A stretch of DNA of 32,621 nucleotides, taken from positions 2,408,914 through 2,441,534 of the forward strand of contig CP070755.1 in assembly GCA_020348885.1 (NCBI GenBank), in the 5' to 3' direction. Below, one piece after another: positions 3,468-14,843 of the stretch; the first letter of the stretch is position 1, and each line of letters opens with the position of its first letter. Under the pieces are notes generated by a model that did no database searches, was not told the origin of the DNA, and saw only the letters and a program-made list of their open reading frames with translations. The DNA is from Candidatus Coatesiibacteriota bacterium (GTDB lineage: Bacteria; RBG-13-66-14; B26-G2; WVWN01; G020348885). The position numbers were made by a program, and so were the translations under genes.

Positions 3468-4049
3468 TTATTCCGCGAATCCGGCTTTGACGCGGCCGAG
3501 GGAAGTCGGATCGACCGCTTCTCCGCCGTAGATTATGTCTTCGATAGCGTTGGTCAAACCGTTGAAATCGATGGCGTAGTCGTCCATCCATACGACTATC
3601 CCGTCGCGGTCCACGAGCGCGCATTGACCAAACCAGCTTGAGCCGGTCATCTTCCATTTTACGAAGTCCGGTTGCTCCGCGTCTAAAAAGTCGTGGTCGA
3701 GGACTTGGCCGTGGTACGTGTACTTCATCGTAGATTGTACGCTGGGAGGATCGTAGGCGTTCATAGATATTACTTCCAAACCAACTCCTACATCGTGATA
3801 GACATCATATACCTGAGTCTCTAATGCCAGACAATCCGTCCGGCAGGCGCCTCAAGACTGTTTCCAGTGGGATACAACGACTATCTTCCCGGCGTCCAAG
3901 TAGTCCTGGATATCCAACCAAGGGCCGTGGTAATCGGCGCTGTCGTCGATGGAATAATTAGCCAGTCCCGGTTGTTCGTCGCCTACGTCTAACGCGAACG
4001 CGTTTAAGGCGAACAACAACCCCGTAATAAATACCAATACCCAACGCAT
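3468..4049 (-). CDS. Secreted thioredoxin-fold selenoprotein candidate, U-x-x-C (paralogue 1)
   Basis: A single 193-residue reading frame interrupted once by UGA at 3852-3854 (codon 66). Reading UGA as selenocysteine gives strand KIVVVSHW, then Q-S-U-G-A-C, a redox U-x-x-C motif placed exactly where TlpA-like thioredoxins carry C-x-x-C. Downstream are the expected V-x-V-I-S strand, an FGQCALVDRDGIVVW strand pair (the 'TP.tflIDrdG' region of redoxins) and a C-terminal helix. Residues 1-20 are a signal peptide (MRWVLVFITGLLFALNAFA). AGGAGG precedes the ATG at 4049. The tail ends with the shared motif DPTSLGRVKAGFAE. TGA is a normal stop elsewhere in the window, for example at 14320, 17011 and 18510, which argues against a changed code. 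A hairpin lies just after the UGA. Sec incorporation is inferred; the selenium genes are not in this window. Confidence 0.82.
3814..3854 (-). promoter_or_regulatory. Candidate bacterial SECIS hairpin, selenoprotein 1
   Basis: Starting at the UGA, the mRNA can form a lower stem UGAG/CUCA (3851-3854 with 3814-3817). Above an internal loop sits an 8-bp upper stem, UGCCGGAC / GUCUGGCA (3838-3845 with 3825-3832), closed by the loop GGAUU. One pair is a G-U wobble that is a mismatch on the opposite strand, which points to the minus-strand RNA. The loop starts with G, as in known bacterial SECIS elements. The UGA-to-loop spacing of 14 nt is slightly shorter than the usual range. Confidence 0.6.
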
Positions 4050-4098
4050 ATTTACCTCCTATCGGTAAACTTGATTGGTGACCATAGGTATATATGAC
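4050..4098 (-). promoter_or_regulatory. Leader of selenoprotein gene 1, duplicated at 5484
   Basis: Immediately upstream of the ATG the minus strand reads GTTTACCGATAGGAGGTAAAT, with an optimal AGGAGG at 4055-4060. A TATATA-rich segment lies about 40 bases upstream. The same arrangement precedes the second selenoprotein gene, so the leader was copied with the gene. Confidence 0.6.
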
Positions 4099-4166
4099 TA
4101 TTCTCGTTATCTTTATACCACGTATTGCCCGCGTTTTCAAATGAAAAACCCGCCGTTTAAAGAGCG

Positions 4167-4186
4167 AAAGGGCCTTTCGGCCCTTT
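4167..4186 (-). terminator. Terminator-like hairpin of the second selenoprotein gene
   Basis: Identical AAAGGGCC-GAAA-GGCCCTTT stem-loop to that at 3411-3434, 35 bases past the stop of the upstream gene. The following U-tract is weak (CGCUCUUUAAA), so termination may be partial. Confidence 0.65.
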
Positions 4187-4220
4187 CCTGTTTCGTTCCG
4201 TCTCGTCGTTCCTCGTTTTG

Positions 4221-5483
4221 TTATTCCGTGAAACCGACCTTGATGGAGCCCAGGGACGCCGGTGTTATGTTCGTGTTGTAGTCGAAGGAGAACGAGAAAG
4301 TGTCTCTCGAGTCGAAGTCGTCGTCCGGCGCGTTACATATCACGTACCAGTAGTAGGTTATATCGTCGGTAACGTCGAAGGTGTGGGTGTATTCGATATC
4401 GGTAATGCCGGTTTCGTGGACTTCCGGCGAGCTGAAGTCGTCGTTGTCGTCCACGATGAGCTCGTACGAGTCGGCGCGGATGACCTCATCCCACTCGAAG
4501 GTTACGTCGTAGCCGGTACGCCCGCCGTCGGCGACGATAACCGGCTTGCTTCCCGTCGCCGCGCGTACGGTTTCTCCGGCGCCGCTTCTAGGCCCGGTTA
4601 CTTCGAAAACCTCGCCGTCGTCGGGTTCGTTCAGGTCAAACGACCGCGTCCAGAAACTGTATTCGTCCTCCATGTCGTGGCGCGCCAGGTCGCTCGCGGC
4701 GACGTACACGAAAACCTCGATGTAGTGCGGTAGCGGGTCGTCGGGGTTGAAGGAGTAACTCGTATCCAGGAAGTCGCCTGATAGGTTCAGGTCGCCTGGG
4801 ATGTCGCCTTTTACCAGCGTATAAACGTCCACTTCGATAGAATCTTCGTCGAGGCCGTAGTTGTCGTCTATTATGTGGCCCGATATGTTATAACTCAGGC
4901 TGACGTCGGTGTCGCCGTCTTCCGGGTTCATGTCTTCCAGGTACGGCGGGTCTTCGTCGCCGTAAATTACCGCATCAAAGGCGTCTTCGAATTCGGAATA
5001 CGTACCCCCGTAGCCCAGCTTACTCAGGTAGCAATACCCTGTCGGTCCGATGATGAACGTCTGGGGTACGCCGCTGCTGGTGGTTATCTTCCACGCGTTC
5101 CAGTCGCTAGTTTCTAGGTTAGTGAATAGAAAACGGACCGGGTTTCCGTCGAGCATGTTGAACTTCCAGTTACCGATAGCGGCCGCTGTATCCCAGCAGT
5201 CTACTTCGATAAACTCCACGCCCAGCGGGTAGTAATCGTAGTAAACGTAGTCCTCGATATCTTCGAGTTCATTATTGCAATAGGTTCAAGTATCGTAACC
5301 GAAGCTAACGAGGAAGGTCTTGTCGGCGGCGAGATAGTCGTCGACGTTGACGTACGCCCCAAGGCCGCCGCCGGCGGTAACTACCTCTGGCCGGTTCAAC
5401 GGTGGGCACTCTTCGCCCAACTCCAACGCGCCGGCGTAAACGAAGAAGCCTAACGCGATAACCGCTGCTAGAAATATCCGCAT
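4221..5483 (-). CDS. Secreted thioredoxin-fold selenoprotein candidate with Ig/FnIII-like domains (paralogue 2)
   Basis: One continuous frame of 420 residues with an internal UGA at 5286-5288, again codon 66. With UGA as Sec it reads FLVSFGYDT-U-TYC, a U-x-x-C motif after the core strand of a thioredoxin fold. Residues 1-20 are a signal peptide (MRIFLAAVIALGFFVYAGA). The fold continues with VEFIEVD, then GVPQTFIIGPTGYCY, which carries the Val-Pro cis-proline site of thioredoxins. From about residue 170 come a bacterial Ig-like domain (DMNPEDGDTDVSLSYNISG) and an FnIII-like domain (SYELIVDDNDDFSSPEV). The end is ITPASLGSIKVGFTE, the shared C-terminal motif. AGGAGG precedes the ATG at 5483. Without Sec the gene would be a 65-residue fragment plus an orphan frame lacking its active site. 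The substrate is unknown. Confidence 0.85.
5253..5288 (-). promoter_or_regulatory. Candidate bacterial SECIS hairpin, selenoprotein 2
   Basis: Downstream of the UGA a 5-bp stem, CUCGA / UCGAG (5263-5267 with 5253-5257), closes the loop AGAUA. The loop has G at its second position and lies 23 nt from the UGA. Both values fit the published description of bacterial SECIS elements as I remember it. The stem is short, so this call is weaker than that for selenoprotein 1. Confidence 0.45.
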
Positions 5484-5641: not shown

Positions 5642-6400
5642 TTAACTCGGTTTCCTCGGCTCCCCCTGCGGCTCCTCGTCCGATATCGGCGGGACCTTCG
5701 GCCAGAAACCGAGGAGTTTTGCGAGGCGCCGGCGGAACAGGAAAATAAAGTTCTTCGTTCCGTCGCGCCAGAGGCTCAGTTTCGATTCACCCTTCCGTTT
5801 GACGTAGTGAAAATCGATGGGTACTTCCCGGCCCTTGATTTCTCGGCGCTTCTCGAAGACCTCCAGCTTCAGCTCCTCGGAGAAGGGCATCCCGTCGCTG
5901 GTAACGTTCACCTTTTCGAGGACATCCCGGCGGAAGCACCACATCCCGGACTGGCTGTCGTGGATATGCCGGAAGTAGAGGAGCAGTATCGCGAAGTTGA
6001 AAACCTTGTTGCCGAACCACCGGAGGAAGTAGTCGAAGCTCTCCTGCCAGTCGGCGGCGATGCGCCAGGCGCTCACGAACTCCAGGTCGTCCCGGTCGAG
6101 TATGTCGATGAGGTAGGGGATCGCGACGACCGGGTACGTGCCGTCGCCGTCCAGCGTACAGACGACGTCGCCGGCGGCCTGGCTCAGGCCCGATTTGTAC
6201 GCGCGGCCGTAGCCGGGTCGTTCCTCGAAAACGACGCGGGCGCCCATCCGCCGGGCGACGTCGCCGGTGGCGTCGCTGGAGTTGTTGTCCACGACTATGA
6301 CCTCGTCGACGAAGTCCGGCATCGCGGCCAGGCAGTCGGCGACGCCCTCCTCCTCGTTGTAGCAGGGCATCACCACCGTTATCTTGTACCCGCGGCGCAT
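5642..6400 (-). CDS. GT2 glycosyltransferase, dolichyl/polyprenyl-phosphate mannose synthase-like
   Basis: A 252-residue family 2 glycosyltransferase. The N-terminal nucleotide-binding strand reads VVMPCYNEEEGV, followed by VIVVDNNSSDATGD and the DXD-type motif TLDGDGTYP around residue 85. It transfers a sugar from a nucleotide donor, most likely to a polyprenyl phosphate or a cell-surface glycan precursor, at the cytoplasmic face of the membrane. Segment FDYFLRWFGNKVFNFAILLLYF is a membrane-associated hydrophobic stretch, and DGMPFSEELKLEV holds the acceptor-side acidic residues of the DPM1-like group. No C-terminal flippase domain is fused. The start ATG at 6400 lacks a clear ribosome binding site but lies directly before the fold. 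It is isolated from other glycan genes here. Confidence 0.9.
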   Translation of the reverse strand: MRRGYKITVVMPCYNEEEGVADCLAAMPDFVDEVIVVDNNSSDATGDVARRMGARVVFEERPGYGRAYKSGLSQAAGDVVCTLDGDGTYPVVAIPYLIDILDRDDLEFVSAWRIAADWQESFDYFLRWFGNKVFNFAILLLYFRHIHDSQSGMWCFRRDVLEKVNVTSDGMPFSEELKLEVFEKRREIKGREVPIDFHYVKRKGESKLSLWRDGTKNFIFLFRRRLAKLLGFWPKVPPISDEEPQGEPRKPS

Positions 6401-6664: not shown

Positions 6665-7498
6665 ATGAGGAACATGTATGTGATTTCGGCCTTCGCTTTG
6701 ATACCTGTATTCGCACTTGGATATGCGGCGGACGACGGTACTTCGGCCCCGGCCCGCGATCGGGTTTTCGACATTACAATCATAAACACGTTCCAGTGTC
6801 CTTACGCGACCGAGATTATGGGACTCGATTACGTCGACGGTGAGAACGCGTTGACCTTCGCCAGTAACCTGGACGACGCGTTGTATACTTGCAATGCAAA
6901 CAACGGAACCTATATCAGCGCTCTTACGTTAAATTACACCGGTAACGCCCACCCGTTCGGCGTTTGTTACGACGGCAACGGATACCCGCATGTCAACGAA
7001 TTTTCCGGCCAGAAGGTATACTGGACCGACTACGCGGAGTGGGATTACTATCCCAACCCTGCGGGGAACAAAGGTAGCGGCATGGACTTCGACGGGACCT
7101 TCATCTGGGAGACCTACTCGACCGAGGGCGTTTACCGCTTCTTGCCCGGCGGCACCAACGAAGAGTACTACCCGGCAAACGACGTTGGGGCACAGATGAG
7201 CGGCCTGGCCGTGTTCCCCTTTAACGGCAATACCTGGTTGATGCTTTCGACCCACGGCGTGTATTTGTTCTATTTCTACGAGTTCGACGGTTCCACCTTG
7301 ACGTATATAGGCGCCGACGACTGCCCGCTTGAGCTGGACCAGTCCTACGGGCTGACTTATGCGGCCGAGCGGGGTACCTTCTTCTGGAGCTACACCATAG
7401 GCGAAGAAGAATGGGTCGCCGAACTTGACTTAGGCCTCGACGACGATTCGGCCGTAATCCCGATGAGCGTGGGCGTCATAAAGGCGGCGTACAGGTAG
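6665..7498 (+). CDS. Secreted beta-propeller-like protein, block order Y-X (paralogue 1)
   Basis: 277 residues; GAGGAGGG precedes the ATG and residues 1-21 form a signal peptide (MRNMYVISAFALIPVFALGY). Two blocks follow. Block Y (about 37-188) runs from ITIINTFQCPYA to MSGLAVF and holds the conserved segments LDYVDGENA, HPFGVCYDGNGYPHVNEF and NKGSGMDF. Block X (about 190-260) runs from TWLMLSTHG through YEFDGSTLTYI and DQSYGLTY to AELDL. The two genes downstream carry the same blocks in the order X-Y, so this copy is a circular permutant. The blade-like repeats (SGL.VF, GLTY, GLDYV) suggest a propeller closed head to tail, which tolerates permutation. It ends IPMSVGVIKAAYR, the shared C-terminal motif. 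I recognise no named family or catalytic site; a surface or secreted binding protein is inferred. Confidence 0.8.
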   Translation: MRNMYVISAFALIPVFALGYAADDGTSAPARDRVFDITIINTFQCPYATEIMGLDYVDGENALTFASNLDDALYTCNANNGTYISALTLNYTGNAHPFGVCYDGNGYPHVNEFSGQKVYWTDYAEWDYYPNPAGNKGSGMDFDGTFIWETYSTEGVYRFLPGGTNEEYYPANDVGAQMSGLAVFPFNGNTWLMLSTHGVYLFYFYEFDGSTLTYIGADDCPLELDQSYGLTYAAERGTFFWSYTIGEEEWVAELDLGLDDDSAVIPMSVGVIKAAYR

Positions 7499-7524
7499 GC
7501 ACTCGAGTCCAAACGGAACCCTAC

Positions 7525-7556
7525 GGGTGGCGATATGTCGCCACCCGGTTTTTATT
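7525..7556 (+). terminator. Intrinsic terminator after propeller paralogue 1
   Basis: A 9-bp perfect stem, GGGTGGCGA / TCGCCACCC, with TATG loop (7525-7546), followed by GG and TTTTTATT. Closely related hairpins end the next two genes. Confidence 0.92.
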
Positions 7557-7626
7557 CCAAACGGTAGAAAAACGCGTCTCCGGCGGGTAAGTTAACGCGT
7601 TCGGCCGTGACTATAGCCGACGGTGT
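7552..7626 (-). pseudogene. Decayed 3' end of a PQQ-type propeller gene (copy A)
   Basis: Read on the minus strand, this stretch gives TPSAIVTAERVNLPAGDAFF then YRLE and a stop. That aligns with the C-terminus of the intact PQQ-propeller protein at 11263 (TPVVSGGRVYFGSEDGLFYCLE-stop). Homology fades upstream and there is no start. It looks like the last piece of a gene that once ran convergently toward the plus-strand propeller gene. Confidence 0.6.
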
Positions 7627-7673
7627 CGTAAGCTCAAACGAGCGTTTTTGACGGTATTTGAGGCGTTATTATC

Positions 7674-7702
7674 TTTCGCGCGTTCGGGGCGATATGTATA
7701 AT
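7674..7702 (+). promoter_or_regulatory. Probable promoter of propeller paralogue 2
   Basis: A consensus -10 TATAAT at 7697-7702 with a weak -35 (TTTCGC, 7674-7679) at 17 bases. The equivalent position upstream of the duplicated gene also carries TATAAT, so the element is conserved between copies. The leader of about 80 bases is also conserved. Confidence 0.6.
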
Positions 7703-7788
7703 AACGCCCGATTTGACTAAGAGGTAGCGTGTCGGGGCAATTAAGACCGGCGCGTGAGATGGAGTATGCTAACAATGAGAGGAGAAGT

Positions 7789-8589
7789 ATGAGGTATTTA
7801 ATCGTTATTCTGGTTATGGCGTCTCTACCGGCGTGCGCGTTCGGTGACGATAACCTCTGGCTTATGAACGCGAGCCACGGAGAGTACGTATTCAACTTCT
7901 ACGAGTTTGACGGTTCGACTCTGACGTATATAGATACCGTCGATTGCCCGCTGACGCCGTCGCAGTCCTACGGGCTGGCGTACTCGGTAGACCGCGATAC
8001 CGTCTTCTGGAGCTACGCTATAGGGAGCGACGATTCGATAAGCGAGCTCGATATCGACTTCGGTACGGACATCACCATCACCGTCGTCAACACGTTCGAA
8101 TGCCCGTACGCGGGGGAAATCCGCGGCCTCGACTTCGTCGACGGCGAGAACGCCATATCGTTTACCAGCGACCCGGATAATATGATATATACCTGCAACG
8201 CCGACGACGGGACGTACGTAAGCGAGTTGGCTTTGGGGTTCAGCAATCCCCATCCGTTTGGCGTTTGCTACGATAATAACGGCTATCCCCACTTGAACGA
8301 GTTTAACGGTAGCGATATTTTCTGGTACAACGGCGTTGACTGGAACGAATACGCGAACCCGTCGTCCAACAAAGGCAGCGGTATGGACTTCTACGGCGGC
8401 TACGTCTGGGAAACCTACTGGACCGATGGAGTGTACCGCTTCCTCCCCGACGGGACCGGCACCGAATTCTACGAAACGCCCGAGGTGGGAGCGCAGCTGA
8501 GCGGGCTCACCGTGTTCCTGAAAAGCGGCGGCGGCGACACCGGCGTCGAACCTGCGAGCATGGGTACTATCAAAGCGACGTACAGGTAG
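7789..8589 (+). CDS. Secreted beta-propeller-like protein, block order X-Y (paralogue 2)
   Basis: 266 residues from the ATG at 7789, chosen because GAGAGGAG lies just upstream and a signal peptide starts there (MRYLIVILVMASLPACAFG). An in-frame upstream start at 7729 would bury the signal. Block X (LWLMNASHG ... SELDID) comes first, then block Y (ITITVVNTFECPYA ... LSGLTVF), the reverse of the order in the gene at 6665. Conserved segments include YEFDGSTLTYI, QSYGLAY, FVDGENAISF, HPFGVCYDNNGYPHLNEF and NKGSGMDF. A short Gly-rich linker leads to the shared C-terminal motif VEPASMGTIKATYR. The protein is very similar to the gene at 8883, with which it shares leader and terminator, marking a recent tandem duplication. 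Function is unknown; extracellular or surface location is inferred. Confidence 0.8.
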   Translation: MRYLIVILVMASLPACAFGDDNLWLMNASHGEYVFNFYEFDGSTLTYIDTVDCPLTPSQSYGLAYSVDRDTVFWSYAIGSDDSISELDIDFGTDITITVVNTFECPYAGEIRGLDFVDGENAISFTSDPDNMIYTCNADDGTYVSELALGFSNPHPFGVCYDNNGYPHLNEFNGSDIFWYNGVDWNEYANPSSNKGSGMDFYGGYVWETYWTDGVYRFLPDGTGTEFYETPEVGAQLSGLTVFLKSGGGDTGVEPASMGTIKATYR

Positions 8590-8615
8590 GCACTCGAACG
8601 GAAGCGGAATAATAC

Positions 8616-8637
8616 GGGCGGCGACGAATCGCCGCCC
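8616..8637 (+). terminator. Terminator hairpin after propeller paralogue 2
   Basis: A 9-bp stem, GGGCGGCGA / TCGCCGCCC, with CGAA loop, followed by GGTATTCTATT. The T-tract is interrupted but the hairpin is strong. Confidence 0.75.
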
Positions 8638-8643
8638 GGTATT

Positions 8644-8715
8644 CTATTCCAAACAGTAGAAAAACCCGTCTTCGGCGTGTGAGTAAACGCGTCGGTCCGC
8701 GACTATAGCCGACGG
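8644..8715 (-). pseudogene. Decayed 3' end of a PQQ-type propeller gene (copy B)
   Basis: Minus-strand reading gives PSAIVADRRVYSHAEDGFFY then CLE and a stop. The last seven codons nearly match the end of the intact protein at 11263 (EDGLFYCLE-stop), and RVY precedes both. It is better preserved than copy A at 7552; both lie at the same place in the duplicated unit, so one was copied from the other. No start or upstream body remains. Confidence 0.65.
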
Positions 8716-8767
8716 TGCCGCAAGCCCAAACGAGGGTTTTTGACGGCATTTGAAATGTTATTTTCGT

Positions 8768-8796
8768 TTGCCCACTCGCCGTAATAGTAGTATAAT
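8768..8796 (+). promoter_or_regulatory. Sigma-70-like promoter of propeller paralogue 3
   Basis: TTGCCC (8768-8773), a 17-base spacer and TATAAT (8791-8796), 86 bases before the ATG at 8883. It is the counterpart of 7674-7702. Confidence 0.65.
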
Positions 8797-8882
8797 AGCG
8801 CCGGATTTGATTAAAAAGTGACGGGTCGGGGTAGTTAAGACCCGCAGGTGAGATGAGCTGTACTAACAATGAGAGGAGAAGT

Positions 8883-9686
8883 ATGAGGTATGTAGTCATT
8901 ATTTTGGTTATGGCGTCTCTGCCGGTTTGCGCGTTCGGTGACGGTGAAACCTGGTTTATGAACACGAACCACGGCGAACCGTTCAGCTTTTACTTTTACG
9001 AGTTCGACGGCTCGAGTTTGACGTATGTAGATACCGTCGATTGCCCCGACTTGGGGGTGAATCAATCCTACGGGCTGACGTACTCGGAAGAGCGGGACAC
9101 GGTCTTCTGGAGTTACGCTACCGGGAGTGCCGACTCAATAAGCGAGCTCGATATCGACTTCGGTACGGAAATTACCATCACGGTACTCAACTCGTTCGAA
9201 TGTCCGTACGCGGGGGAAATCCGCGGCCTCGACTTCGTTGACGGCGAGAACGCCATATCTTTTACCAGCGACCCGGATAACATGATATACACCTGCAGCG
9301 CCGACGACGGAACTTACGTAAGCGAGCTACCCATGGGTTTCAGCAATCCCCATCCGTTCGGCATCTGTTACGACGACAACGGGTATCCCCACTTGAACGA
9401 GTATAACGGCGGGTATATCTACTGGTACGACGGCGCCGATTGGAACGAATATGTGAACCCGTCGTCCAACAAAGGCAGCGGTATGGACTTCTACGACGGC
9501 TACGTCTGGGAAACCTACTGGACCGACGGCGCGTACCGTTTCCTCCCCGACGGGACCGGCGCCGTGCTCTATGAAACGCCCGAGGTGGAAGCGCAACTGA
9601 GCGGCCTTACCGTGTTTACGCAAAGCGGCGGCGACACCGTTATCGAACCTACTAGTATGGGTACGATCAAAGCGACGTACAGGTAG
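8883..9686 (+). CDS. Secreted beta-propeller-like protein, block order X-Y (paralogue 3)
   Basis: 267 residues from the ATG at 8883, with GAGAGGAG upstream and the signal peptide MRYVVIILVMASLPVCAFG. It has the same block order X-Y as the gene at 7789 and differs from it mainly by substitutions: TWFMNTNHG against LWLMNASHG at the start of X, and EYNGGYIYWYDGADW against EFNGSDIFWYNGVDW in Y. It ends IEPTSMGTIKATYR. The retention of every conserved aromatic and Asp/Gly turn suggests that both copies are functional. Its terminator is the strongest of the three. No known family or enzyme motif is recognised; like its neighbours it is probably an exported propeller carrying the shared C-terminal sorting-like motif. 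Confidence 0.8.
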   Translation: MRYVVIILVMASLPVCAFGDGETWFMNTNHGEPFSFYFYEFDGSSLTYVDTVDCPDLGVNQSYGLTYSEERDTVFWSYATGSADSISELDIDFGTEITITVLNSFECPYAGEIRGLDFVDGENAISFTSDPDNMIYTCSADDGTYVSELPMGFSNPHPFGICYDDNGYPHLNEYNGGYIYWYDGADWNEYVNPSSNKGSGMDFYDGYVWETYWTDGAYRFLPDGTGAVLYETPEVEAQLSGLTVFTQSGGDTVIEPTSMGTIKATYR

Positions 9687-14020: not shown

Positions 14021-14320
14021 ATGAGGTTAGGGCGCGTCGCGGGTACCGTCGTCTCGACGGTTAAAGACGACGGATTGAGTGGTTATAAACTTCTGTTGGT
14101 GGACGAAGCCGACGTCCGCGGCGAGGGGCTTAACCGCCATATAGTCGCGGTAGATACAGTGGACGCCGGCGTCGGCGACGTCGTCCTTACCGTCGGCGGT
14201 TCGTCGGCGCGCTTGACTCAACTCACGCGGGACCGGCCCGTGGACGCGGCGATAGTCGCCGTGGTCGAGACCCTAGAAGTCGAGGGCGAGATAACGTACC
14301 GAAAGACGGACGCGCCGTGA
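14021..14320 (+). CDS. EutN/CcmL-type microcompartment vertex protein 1 (BMC-P)
   Basis: A 99-residue protein of the EutN/CcmL family, which forms pentamers that cap the vertices of bacterial microcompartment shells. The N-terminal strand MRLGRVAGTVVST, then GYKLLLVDEA, the hallmark VAVDTVDAGVGDVVLTVGGSSAR and the closing VDAAIVAVVE all match the family in order and length. The ATG at 14021 is chosen over upstream non-ATG starts because the family sequence begins exactly there and AGGAAG precedes it. A short tail (GEITYRKTDAP) is extra. Its TGA stop overlaps the GTG start of the next gene (GTGA), so the genes are coupled. No BMC-H/T shell genes are seen in the window, so the usual shell role is uncertain. 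Confidence 0.9.
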   Translation: MRLGRVAGTVVSTVKDDGLSGYKLLLVDEADVRGEGLNRHIVAVDTVDAGVGDVVLTVGGSSARLTQLTRDRPVDAAIVAVVETLEVEGEITYRKTDAP

Positions 14321-14568
14321 GATTGGGTCGCGTCGTCGGGACTTGCGTTGTTTCCGCGTGCGTCGAAGAGTACGAGGGCAGAAAACTCCTCGTAATCGAA
14401 CCGGTTAGCCGAGAGATGAAGCCTGAGGGTCGTCCGTTTGTGGCGGTGGACGCTGCCGGCGCCGGTTCTGGTTCCGAGGTCATTTGGATAGGCGGCCGCG
14501 AAGCCTGCTACGCGACCCAAGAAGTGGTACCGGCGGACGCGGCCGTGGTCGCCATCTGGGAGCCGTAG
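14317..14568 (+). CDS. EutN/CcmL-type microcompartment vertex protein 2 (BMC-P)
   Basis: 83 residues starting at a GTG that overlaps the previous stop. It carries the same fold markers: MRLGRVVGTCVVSACV, GRKLLVIEPVS, VAVDAAGAGSGSEVIWIGG and the C-terminal strand ADAAVVAIWEP. In the hallmark region Ala replaces the usual Thr or Val after VD, and a Cys lies after the Arg (REACYATQ), so this copy has diverged in the pore-lining loop. The length is normal for BMC-P. Being the second of three different vertex paralogues suggests either hetero-pentamers or specialised vertices. Confidence 0.88.
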   Translation: MRLGRVVGTCVVSACVEEYEGRKLLVIEPVSREMKPEGRPFVAVDAAGAGSGSEVIWIGGREACYATQEVVPADAAVVAIWEP

Positions 14569-14573
14569 GAAGT

Positions 14574-14843
14574 ATGTACATCGCGAATGTTGAGGGGCCG
14601 GCCGTTTCGAACGTGAAGCACGAGGTTCTGGCCGGTCGTAAGTTGTTGGTCGTTCGCCCTTCGAACGCGGACGGCGAGCCCGTCGGCGAGTCTATGGTCG
14701 CGATAGACACTGTGGACGCCGGCCTGGGTGACACGGCCTTGGTAATGCGTGAGGGCCGTTCCGCGGCCGCTCTGGTGGGTAAAGAGTACATACCGGTACG
14801 TACATTAATCGTGGGTATCGTTGACCGGGTCGACGCGAAATGA
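14574..14843 (+). CDS. EutN/CcmL-type microcompartment vertex protein 3 (BMC-P)
   Basis: 89 residues from the ATG at 14574, five bases after the previous stop, with AGGAAG-like sequence spanning the junction. The N-terminus is divergent (MYIANVEGPAVSNVKHE), then AGRKLLVVRPSN, MVAIDTVDAGLGDTALVMREGRSA and VRTLIVGIVDRVDA restore the EutN/CcmL pattern. The insertion in strand order is like the longer vertex proteins of other shells. Its stop overlaps the ATG of the STAS-TPR gene (ATGA), tying the vertex proteins and the STAS proteins into one translationally coupled operon. Confidence 0.88.
   Translation: MYIANVEGPAVSNVKHEVLAGRKLLVVRPSNADGEPVGESMVAIDTVDAGLGDTALVMREGRSAAALVGKEYIPVRTLIVGIVDRVDAK

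Follow-up and report, generated by a model that had tools for sequence, protein, structure and literature searches.

A tandem pair of predicted thioredoxin-like selenoproteins with a shared C-terminal tail in a Candidatus Coatesiibacteriota bacterium

Introduction

Known bacterial selenoproteins are mostly redox or energy enzymes, and many of them have thioredoxin-like folds (table in PMC13188914 and general knowledge). Among these, the TlpA-type or thiol-disulfide isomerase-like selenoproteins (cd02966) and the redoxin selenoproteins (PF08534), which carry a UxxC motif and are listed in PMC13188914, are the closest known systems to the genes described here. The thioredoxin-like proteins ResA and TlpA (PDB 1st9 and 1jfu) are close in fold, and the Omp28-related selenoprotein NF045500 (GOS_C) has UxxC in common with them.

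In this study, a tandem gene pair was analyzed in a 32,621-nucleotide stretch (hereafter the window) of a Candidatus Coatesiibacteriota genome, the assembly of which is a single scaffold of 2.6 Mb. The pair is like the cd02966 and PF08534 selenoproteins in its predicted thioredoxin fold, in the putative selenocysteine (Sec) that stands for the first Cys of CxxC, and in the bacterial SelA/B/D decoding that this would involve. An earlier note, made from the sequence alone, had read the in-frame UGA of both genes as Sec. The analysis supports that interpretation, and only the Ig/FnIII label given to the second gene is unconfirmed.

A Tandem Gene Pair With One In-Frame TGA Each

The features of the locus, in window positions, are as follows (G003 is a relative of the same order as the source, but of another genus and family).

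3468..4049, (-) strand: gene 1, predicted thioredoxin-like selenoprotein of 193 aa with a signal-peptide-like start and a UGAC active site
4221..5483, (-) strand: gene 2, predicted thioredoxin-like selenoprotein of 420 aa with a signal-peptide-like start, a UTYC active site and a C-terminal extension
3852..3854, (-) strand: codon 66 of gene 1, an in-frame TGA taken as Sec; with the Cys codon at 3843-3845 it gives U-x-x-C
5286..5288, (-) strand: codon 66 of gene 2, an in-frame TGA taken as Sec, with the Cys codon at 5277-5279
3993..4049, (-) strand: N terminus of gene 1 resembling a signal peptide, roughly residues 1-19, predicted from the sequence and a hydropathy rule
5427..5483, (-) strand: N terminus of gene 2 resembling a signal peptide, roughly residues 1-19, predicted in the same way
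4284..4952, (-) strand: C-terminal extension of gene 2, a part of which is also present in the G003 homologue
3471..3512, (-) strand: C-terminal tail of gene 1, DPTSLGRVKAGFAE, from the sequence and the tail survey
4224..4265, (-) strand: C-terminal tail of gene 2, TPASLGSIKVGFTE, from the sequence and the tail survey
5642..6400, (-) strand: family 2 glycosyltransferase immediately upstream of the gene pair, in conserved synteny with G003

A codon-by-codon check bore out the claim that the genes are tandem paralogues with one in-frame UGA each at codon 66. Gene 1 comprises 194 codons and gene 2 comprises 421, both running from ATG to TAA with this TGA as the sole in-frame stop. Translated with TGA as Sec, gene 1 reads VVVSHWKQS-U-GACRTD and gene 2 reads FLVSFGYDT-U-TYCNNE, which are the U-G-A-C and U-T-Y-C motifs previously proposed. 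The next counted start likewise lies where it had been placed, 25 codons past the UGA in gene 1 and 23 codons past it in gene 2 according to the ORF list. An identical strong ribosome site (GATAGGAGGTA[A/G]AT-ATG) stands ahead of both ATGs, and the first 20 or so residues of both products look like a signal peptide, in sequence and by the hydropathy rule.

Elsewhere in the window, positions 14021-14843 (+) encode microcompartment vertex proteins of the EutN/CcmL type three times in a row (73-93 bits). STAS/TPR proteins come directly after them, and no shell hexamer came to light in the window.

Thioredoxin-Like Fold and Comparison With Described Systems

The Pfam thioredoxin-like domains were detected below their gathering cut-offs (PF00578, 22 versus 26 bits; PF08534, 17.5 versus 26.6 bits), and the genes are therefore filed as thioredoxin-like relatives and not as members. 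NCBIfam gave a ResA hint below cut-off and nothing else. In an AlphaFold model of gene 1, which is of low confidence (pLDDT 54), strands and helices follow the order of thioredoxin and residue 66 starts the active-site helix. The solved structures closest to this model belong to thioredoxin-like proteins, including ResA and TlpA. Judged from fold and motif, both products would be oxidoreductases of the thioredoxin-like kind, in which Sec is the attacking residue. A Cys homologue with WCPPC had been reported at positions 1-457, and the frame at 2-457 does encode a TlpA-like protein (AhpC-TSA, 64 bits). The Ig and FnIII domains that had been assigned to gene 2 were not recovered, as Pfam at E<=1 found its AhpC-TSA region only and neither domain in the extension.

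Unlike the cd02966 and PF08534 selenoproteins, the window genes score below the cut-offs of PF00578 and PF08534, fit no NCBIfam model and carry a C-terminal tail, to which gene 2 adds its extension. The cis-Pro position also differs, being Gly in gene 1 (FG) and Ser in the G003 homologue (YS), while gene 2 has Pro (VP), and this variation may alter substrate use. ResA and TlpA resemble the Cys homologues found by profile search, but they are Cys enzymes that mostly keep the cis-Pro and do not have the tail of the window genes. The NF045500 model is not matched by the window genes; tail-bearing proteins of the NF045500 kind with a signal peptide occur in another relative, G004 (L137 and L149), below the model cut-off. 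The window pair is a new variant form of thioredoxin-like selenoproteins.

Homologues and Origin of the Pair

A search of 60 relatives gave a single close homologue of gene 1, which has 43-45% identity and one internal TGA and lies in G003 on contig WVWN01000014.1, labelled Candidatus Zixiibacteriota. A contig scan with gene 1 alone as query gave no match, and the same scan with the alignment as query returned the G003 homologue only. In the alignment, the TGA and the +3 Cys columns coincide in gene 1, gene 2 and the G003 homologue, and the identity between gene 1 and this homologue is 33/63 before the TGA and 51/125 after it. The pattern exceeds chance, because TGA and +3 Cys align in the paralogues and in a homologue of such identity, and identity persists past the TGA. 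Beyond the pair and G003, a profile search of 290 genomes found distant Cys homologues only (best 52 bits), and where these were aligned, the TGA column holds the first Cys of their CxxC. Position 66, which the earlier note had proposed to check for Cys in homologues, thus holds either Cys or an in-frame TGA.

These observations bear on the alternative that the TGAs do terminate translation and that the genes are pseudogenes, assembly errors or sources of short N-terminal peptides only. The scaffold is interrupted by many gaps written as runs of exactly 100 N, and such imperfect assembly quality would leave room for errors. However, the two paralogues share the TGA at codon 66 with their homologue from the independent genome of another family, the sequence past it is conserved, and the frames carry no other damage, so that true termination is very improbable.

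The G003 homologue is a single protein, which has an extension like that of gene 2 and ends in the same tail, and the glycosyltransferase ahead of it is 77% identical to that of the window. Since G003 has one copy and the extension is present in it, a tandem duplication of an ancestor with a C-terminal extension is the probable origin of the pair, and gene 1 would then have lost the extension.

Selenocysteine Machinery and TGA Usage

Of the machinery genes that the earlier note had suggested searching for, selA (410 bits, cut-off 268), selB (344 bits, cut-off 242) and selD (344 bits, cut-off 125) are present in the genome. The selD gene has its own single in-frame TGA, in the catalytic loop MVTCAG-U-ASK, the usual Sec position of this family. 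The remaining gene, selC for tRNA-Sec, did not turn up in the gapped assembly with the Rfam model, a DNA match, two patterns and a covariance model from relatives, the model searches having scored 150/368 and 150/2804 candidates. The Rfam matches stayed below cut-off, and their top ranks were taken by ordinary tRNAs, those for Leu and Ser included. A "tRNA" called by ARAGORN near selA was rejected since it sits within a coding gene, and a 17-base tRNA-Sec match was rejected as chance. Because of the frequent 100-N runs, the scaffold lacks part of the genome, and not finding a gene there is therefore weak evidence. In the relatives, tRNA-Sec scored above the Rfam cut-off in 10/10 genomes, all four of the same order included, with which ARAGORN agrees; these tRNAs have the GGACTTCAAATCC arm.

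A tRNA-Sec not seen in the own assembly would fit a UGA that is reassigned genome-wide, or one for which a suppressor or near-cognate tRNA supplies a different amino acid in these genes. Against this, TGA terminates 66 of the 466 ORFs of at least 300 codons (TAA, 260; TAG, 140), in line with the earlier judgement that a genome-wide code change is unlikely, and the codon check found ORFs ending at the TGAs cited as normal stops in the window (14320, 14843, 17011 and 18510). Furthermore, the Sec genes are present, and the TGAs stand at the catalytic Cys in UxxC and beside Cys in CxxU motifs. We give hardly any credence to reassignment or suppression, and decoding of UGA as Sec is the reading followed below.

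Hairpins Downstream of the UGA

Published bSECIS criteria are a spacing of 16-37, a G in the first two loop positions and an MFE of <= -7.5 (PMC13188914). Hairpins with a G-start loop past the TGA were scored against shuffled downstream codons, and one was found in each gene of the pair.

3825..3845, (-) strand: bSECIS hairpin candidate of gene 1 with an 8 bp stem and the loop GGAUU, -12.2 kcal/mol
5253..5267, (-) strand: weak bSECIS candidate of gene 2, a hairpin of 5 bp, -3.9 kcal/mol

The gene 1 hairpin is equalled by about 1% of codon shuffles, and its loop begins 14 nt past the UGA, where the published range starts at 16. The gene 2 hairpin is equalled by about 11% and lies outside the published energy limit. 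The hairpin of the G003 homologue agrees with every published bSECIS criterion and ranks among the best 1-2% against shuffles. Across 14 candidate selenoprotein genes, the mean shuffle fraction was 0.11, versus about 0.5 expected without selection.

UGA decoding and termination compete, and this competition, like the weak hairpin of gene 2, would suit a part-time use of Sec, in which the UGA would be a switch that responds to selenium and yields either a short exported fragment or the whole protein. The mature fragment before codon 66, however, would have about 45 residues and be without most of the thioredoxin fold, which makes a role for the short form unlikely; we consider such a switch improbable and take the full-length Sec protein as the product.

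The C-Terminal Tail Marks Further In-Frame TGAs

Genes 1 and 2 both end in P-x-S-L-G-x-I-K-A-x-F, a tail common to many exported proteins of the order, which looks like a sorting signal. No NCBIfam model matched the tail in the tail-bearing proteins scanned. In the window, positions 6665-9686 (+) hold three tandem paralogues with the same tail (PxSxGxIKAxYR), the first of which is without a Pfam hit.

In 2.1 Mb sampled from the own genome and relatives, the tail stands at the end of 92 stop-to-stop frames, the own-genome scan having covered sampled stretches that make up about 36% of the genome. By a simple hydropathy rule, which is not a trained predictor, most of these frames have their own signal peptide, and in 12 the signal peptide lies upstream of a single in-frame stop. 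This bridged stop is TGA in 12/12, with TGA making up 28-46% of stop triplets in the samples, and a Cys is found <=3 residues from the TGA in 12/12. The lack of any TAA or TAG among the bridging stops is a further argument against true termination in the window genes. In the own genome, the bridged frames are window genes 1 and 2, two beta-helix genes beside selB (L017) and an FCGEU protein (L097); in the relatives, they are a WCGTU protein (L136), three Omp28-like UxxC proteins (L137, L149), two PD40 proteins (L149) and a beta-helix protein (L177).

Two other screens were rejected. Codon-usage scoring on either side of stops missed even the cases already known, and a scan for Cys near TGA without the tail criterion returned TAG and TAA hits as frequently as TGA hits. 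As the latter is unspecific, only candidates backed by homology or by the tail were retained.

Other Selenoprotein Candidates of the Order

The candidates outside the window are the following.

L017:12880-13629 and L017:13829-14569, (+) strand: two tandem beta-helix genes with signal peptide and CxxU TGA (G000:C1, about 506.9-508.6 kb)
L097:3920-4540, (-) strand, and L136:2222-2848, (+) strand: small tail-bearing protein with signal peptide and FCGEU or WCGTU, respectively, near the N terminus, no Pfam hit
L149:12575-13495 and L149:11519-12436, (-) strand: two PD40 beta-propellers with Cys-Sec in one blade, genome G004
L137:12037-12798, L137:12927-13685 and L149:18920-19663, (+) strand: three Omp28-like UxxC tail-bearing candidates, genome G004

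The beta-helix pair lies about 1.5 kb downstream of selB. When 98 genomes were searched, this family had 12 members, distributed over all five genomes of the order, with exactly one TGA each in the context CxGUG. Shortly past the TGA, 11 of the 12 members have a hairpin of at least 5 pairs, the arms of which covary (GGGAG/CUCCC, GGAAC/GUUCC, GGUAC/GUACC, GGAAG/CUUCC). One in 5000 arm shuffles equals it, a value that is not a strict probability as the members are related. The covarying hairpin also speaks against UGA reassignment, and the family is a strong candidate for a new selenoprotein family.

The small proteins of L097 and L136 are 37% homologues with the TGA aligned and conserved between genera, and both have a 10 bp hairpin past it. 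The PD40 contexts are DC-U-PVLTSDG and DC-U-PVLTSDS, and the Cys-Sec propeller is a possible new selenoprotein type. Two of the three Omp28-like candidates match NF045500, below cut-off. The beta-helix, PD40 and FCGEU/WCGTU types are not among the 119 prokaryotic selenoprotein families of a 2026 review (PMC13188914), although entries under other names or unpublished ones may exist. A literature search found nothing relevant on selenocysteine in Coatesbacteria, on selenoproteins of Zixibacteria or on selenocysteine in secreted beta-helix proteins. Separately, L103:16548-17924 (-) encodes a ferredoxin/iron-only hydrogenase C-terminal-domain protein with a TGA in its first cluster motif (KCESUTHCVRVCP).

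Conclusion

It is highly probable that genes 1 and 2 encode thioredoxin-fold (TlpA/ResA-like) oxidoreductases in which UGA 66 is decoded as Sec, and which are exported by a signal peptide and probably sorted by their tail. SelA, SelB and SelD would insert Sec with tRNA-Sec, and the mRNA directly past the UGA would probably be the SECIS element. In place of the attacking first Cys of CxxC, Sec66 would be a fast nucleophile of low pKa, forming selenenyl-sulfide bonds with substrates or with Cys69.

In a wider sense, the order likely has a tail-marked exported selenoproteome that includes unlisted folds (CxxU beta-helix, Cys-Sec PD40, FCGEU/WCGTU), with the window genes as its thioredoxin-like members, and it may form a tail-sorted redox layer at the cell surface. 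Such a tail-tagged exported selenoproteome looks undescribed so far, and with it comes at least one new selenoprotein family that has strong support. Standard annotation splits such selenoproteins in two, and a simple finder for more of them would be a tail present, a signal peptide missing and a TGA between. In the two genomes of one order that were sampled, about one seventh of the tail-bearing, putatively exported proteins would carry Sec, in several unrelated folds, and these proteins suggest Sec chemistry beyond the cytoplasm.
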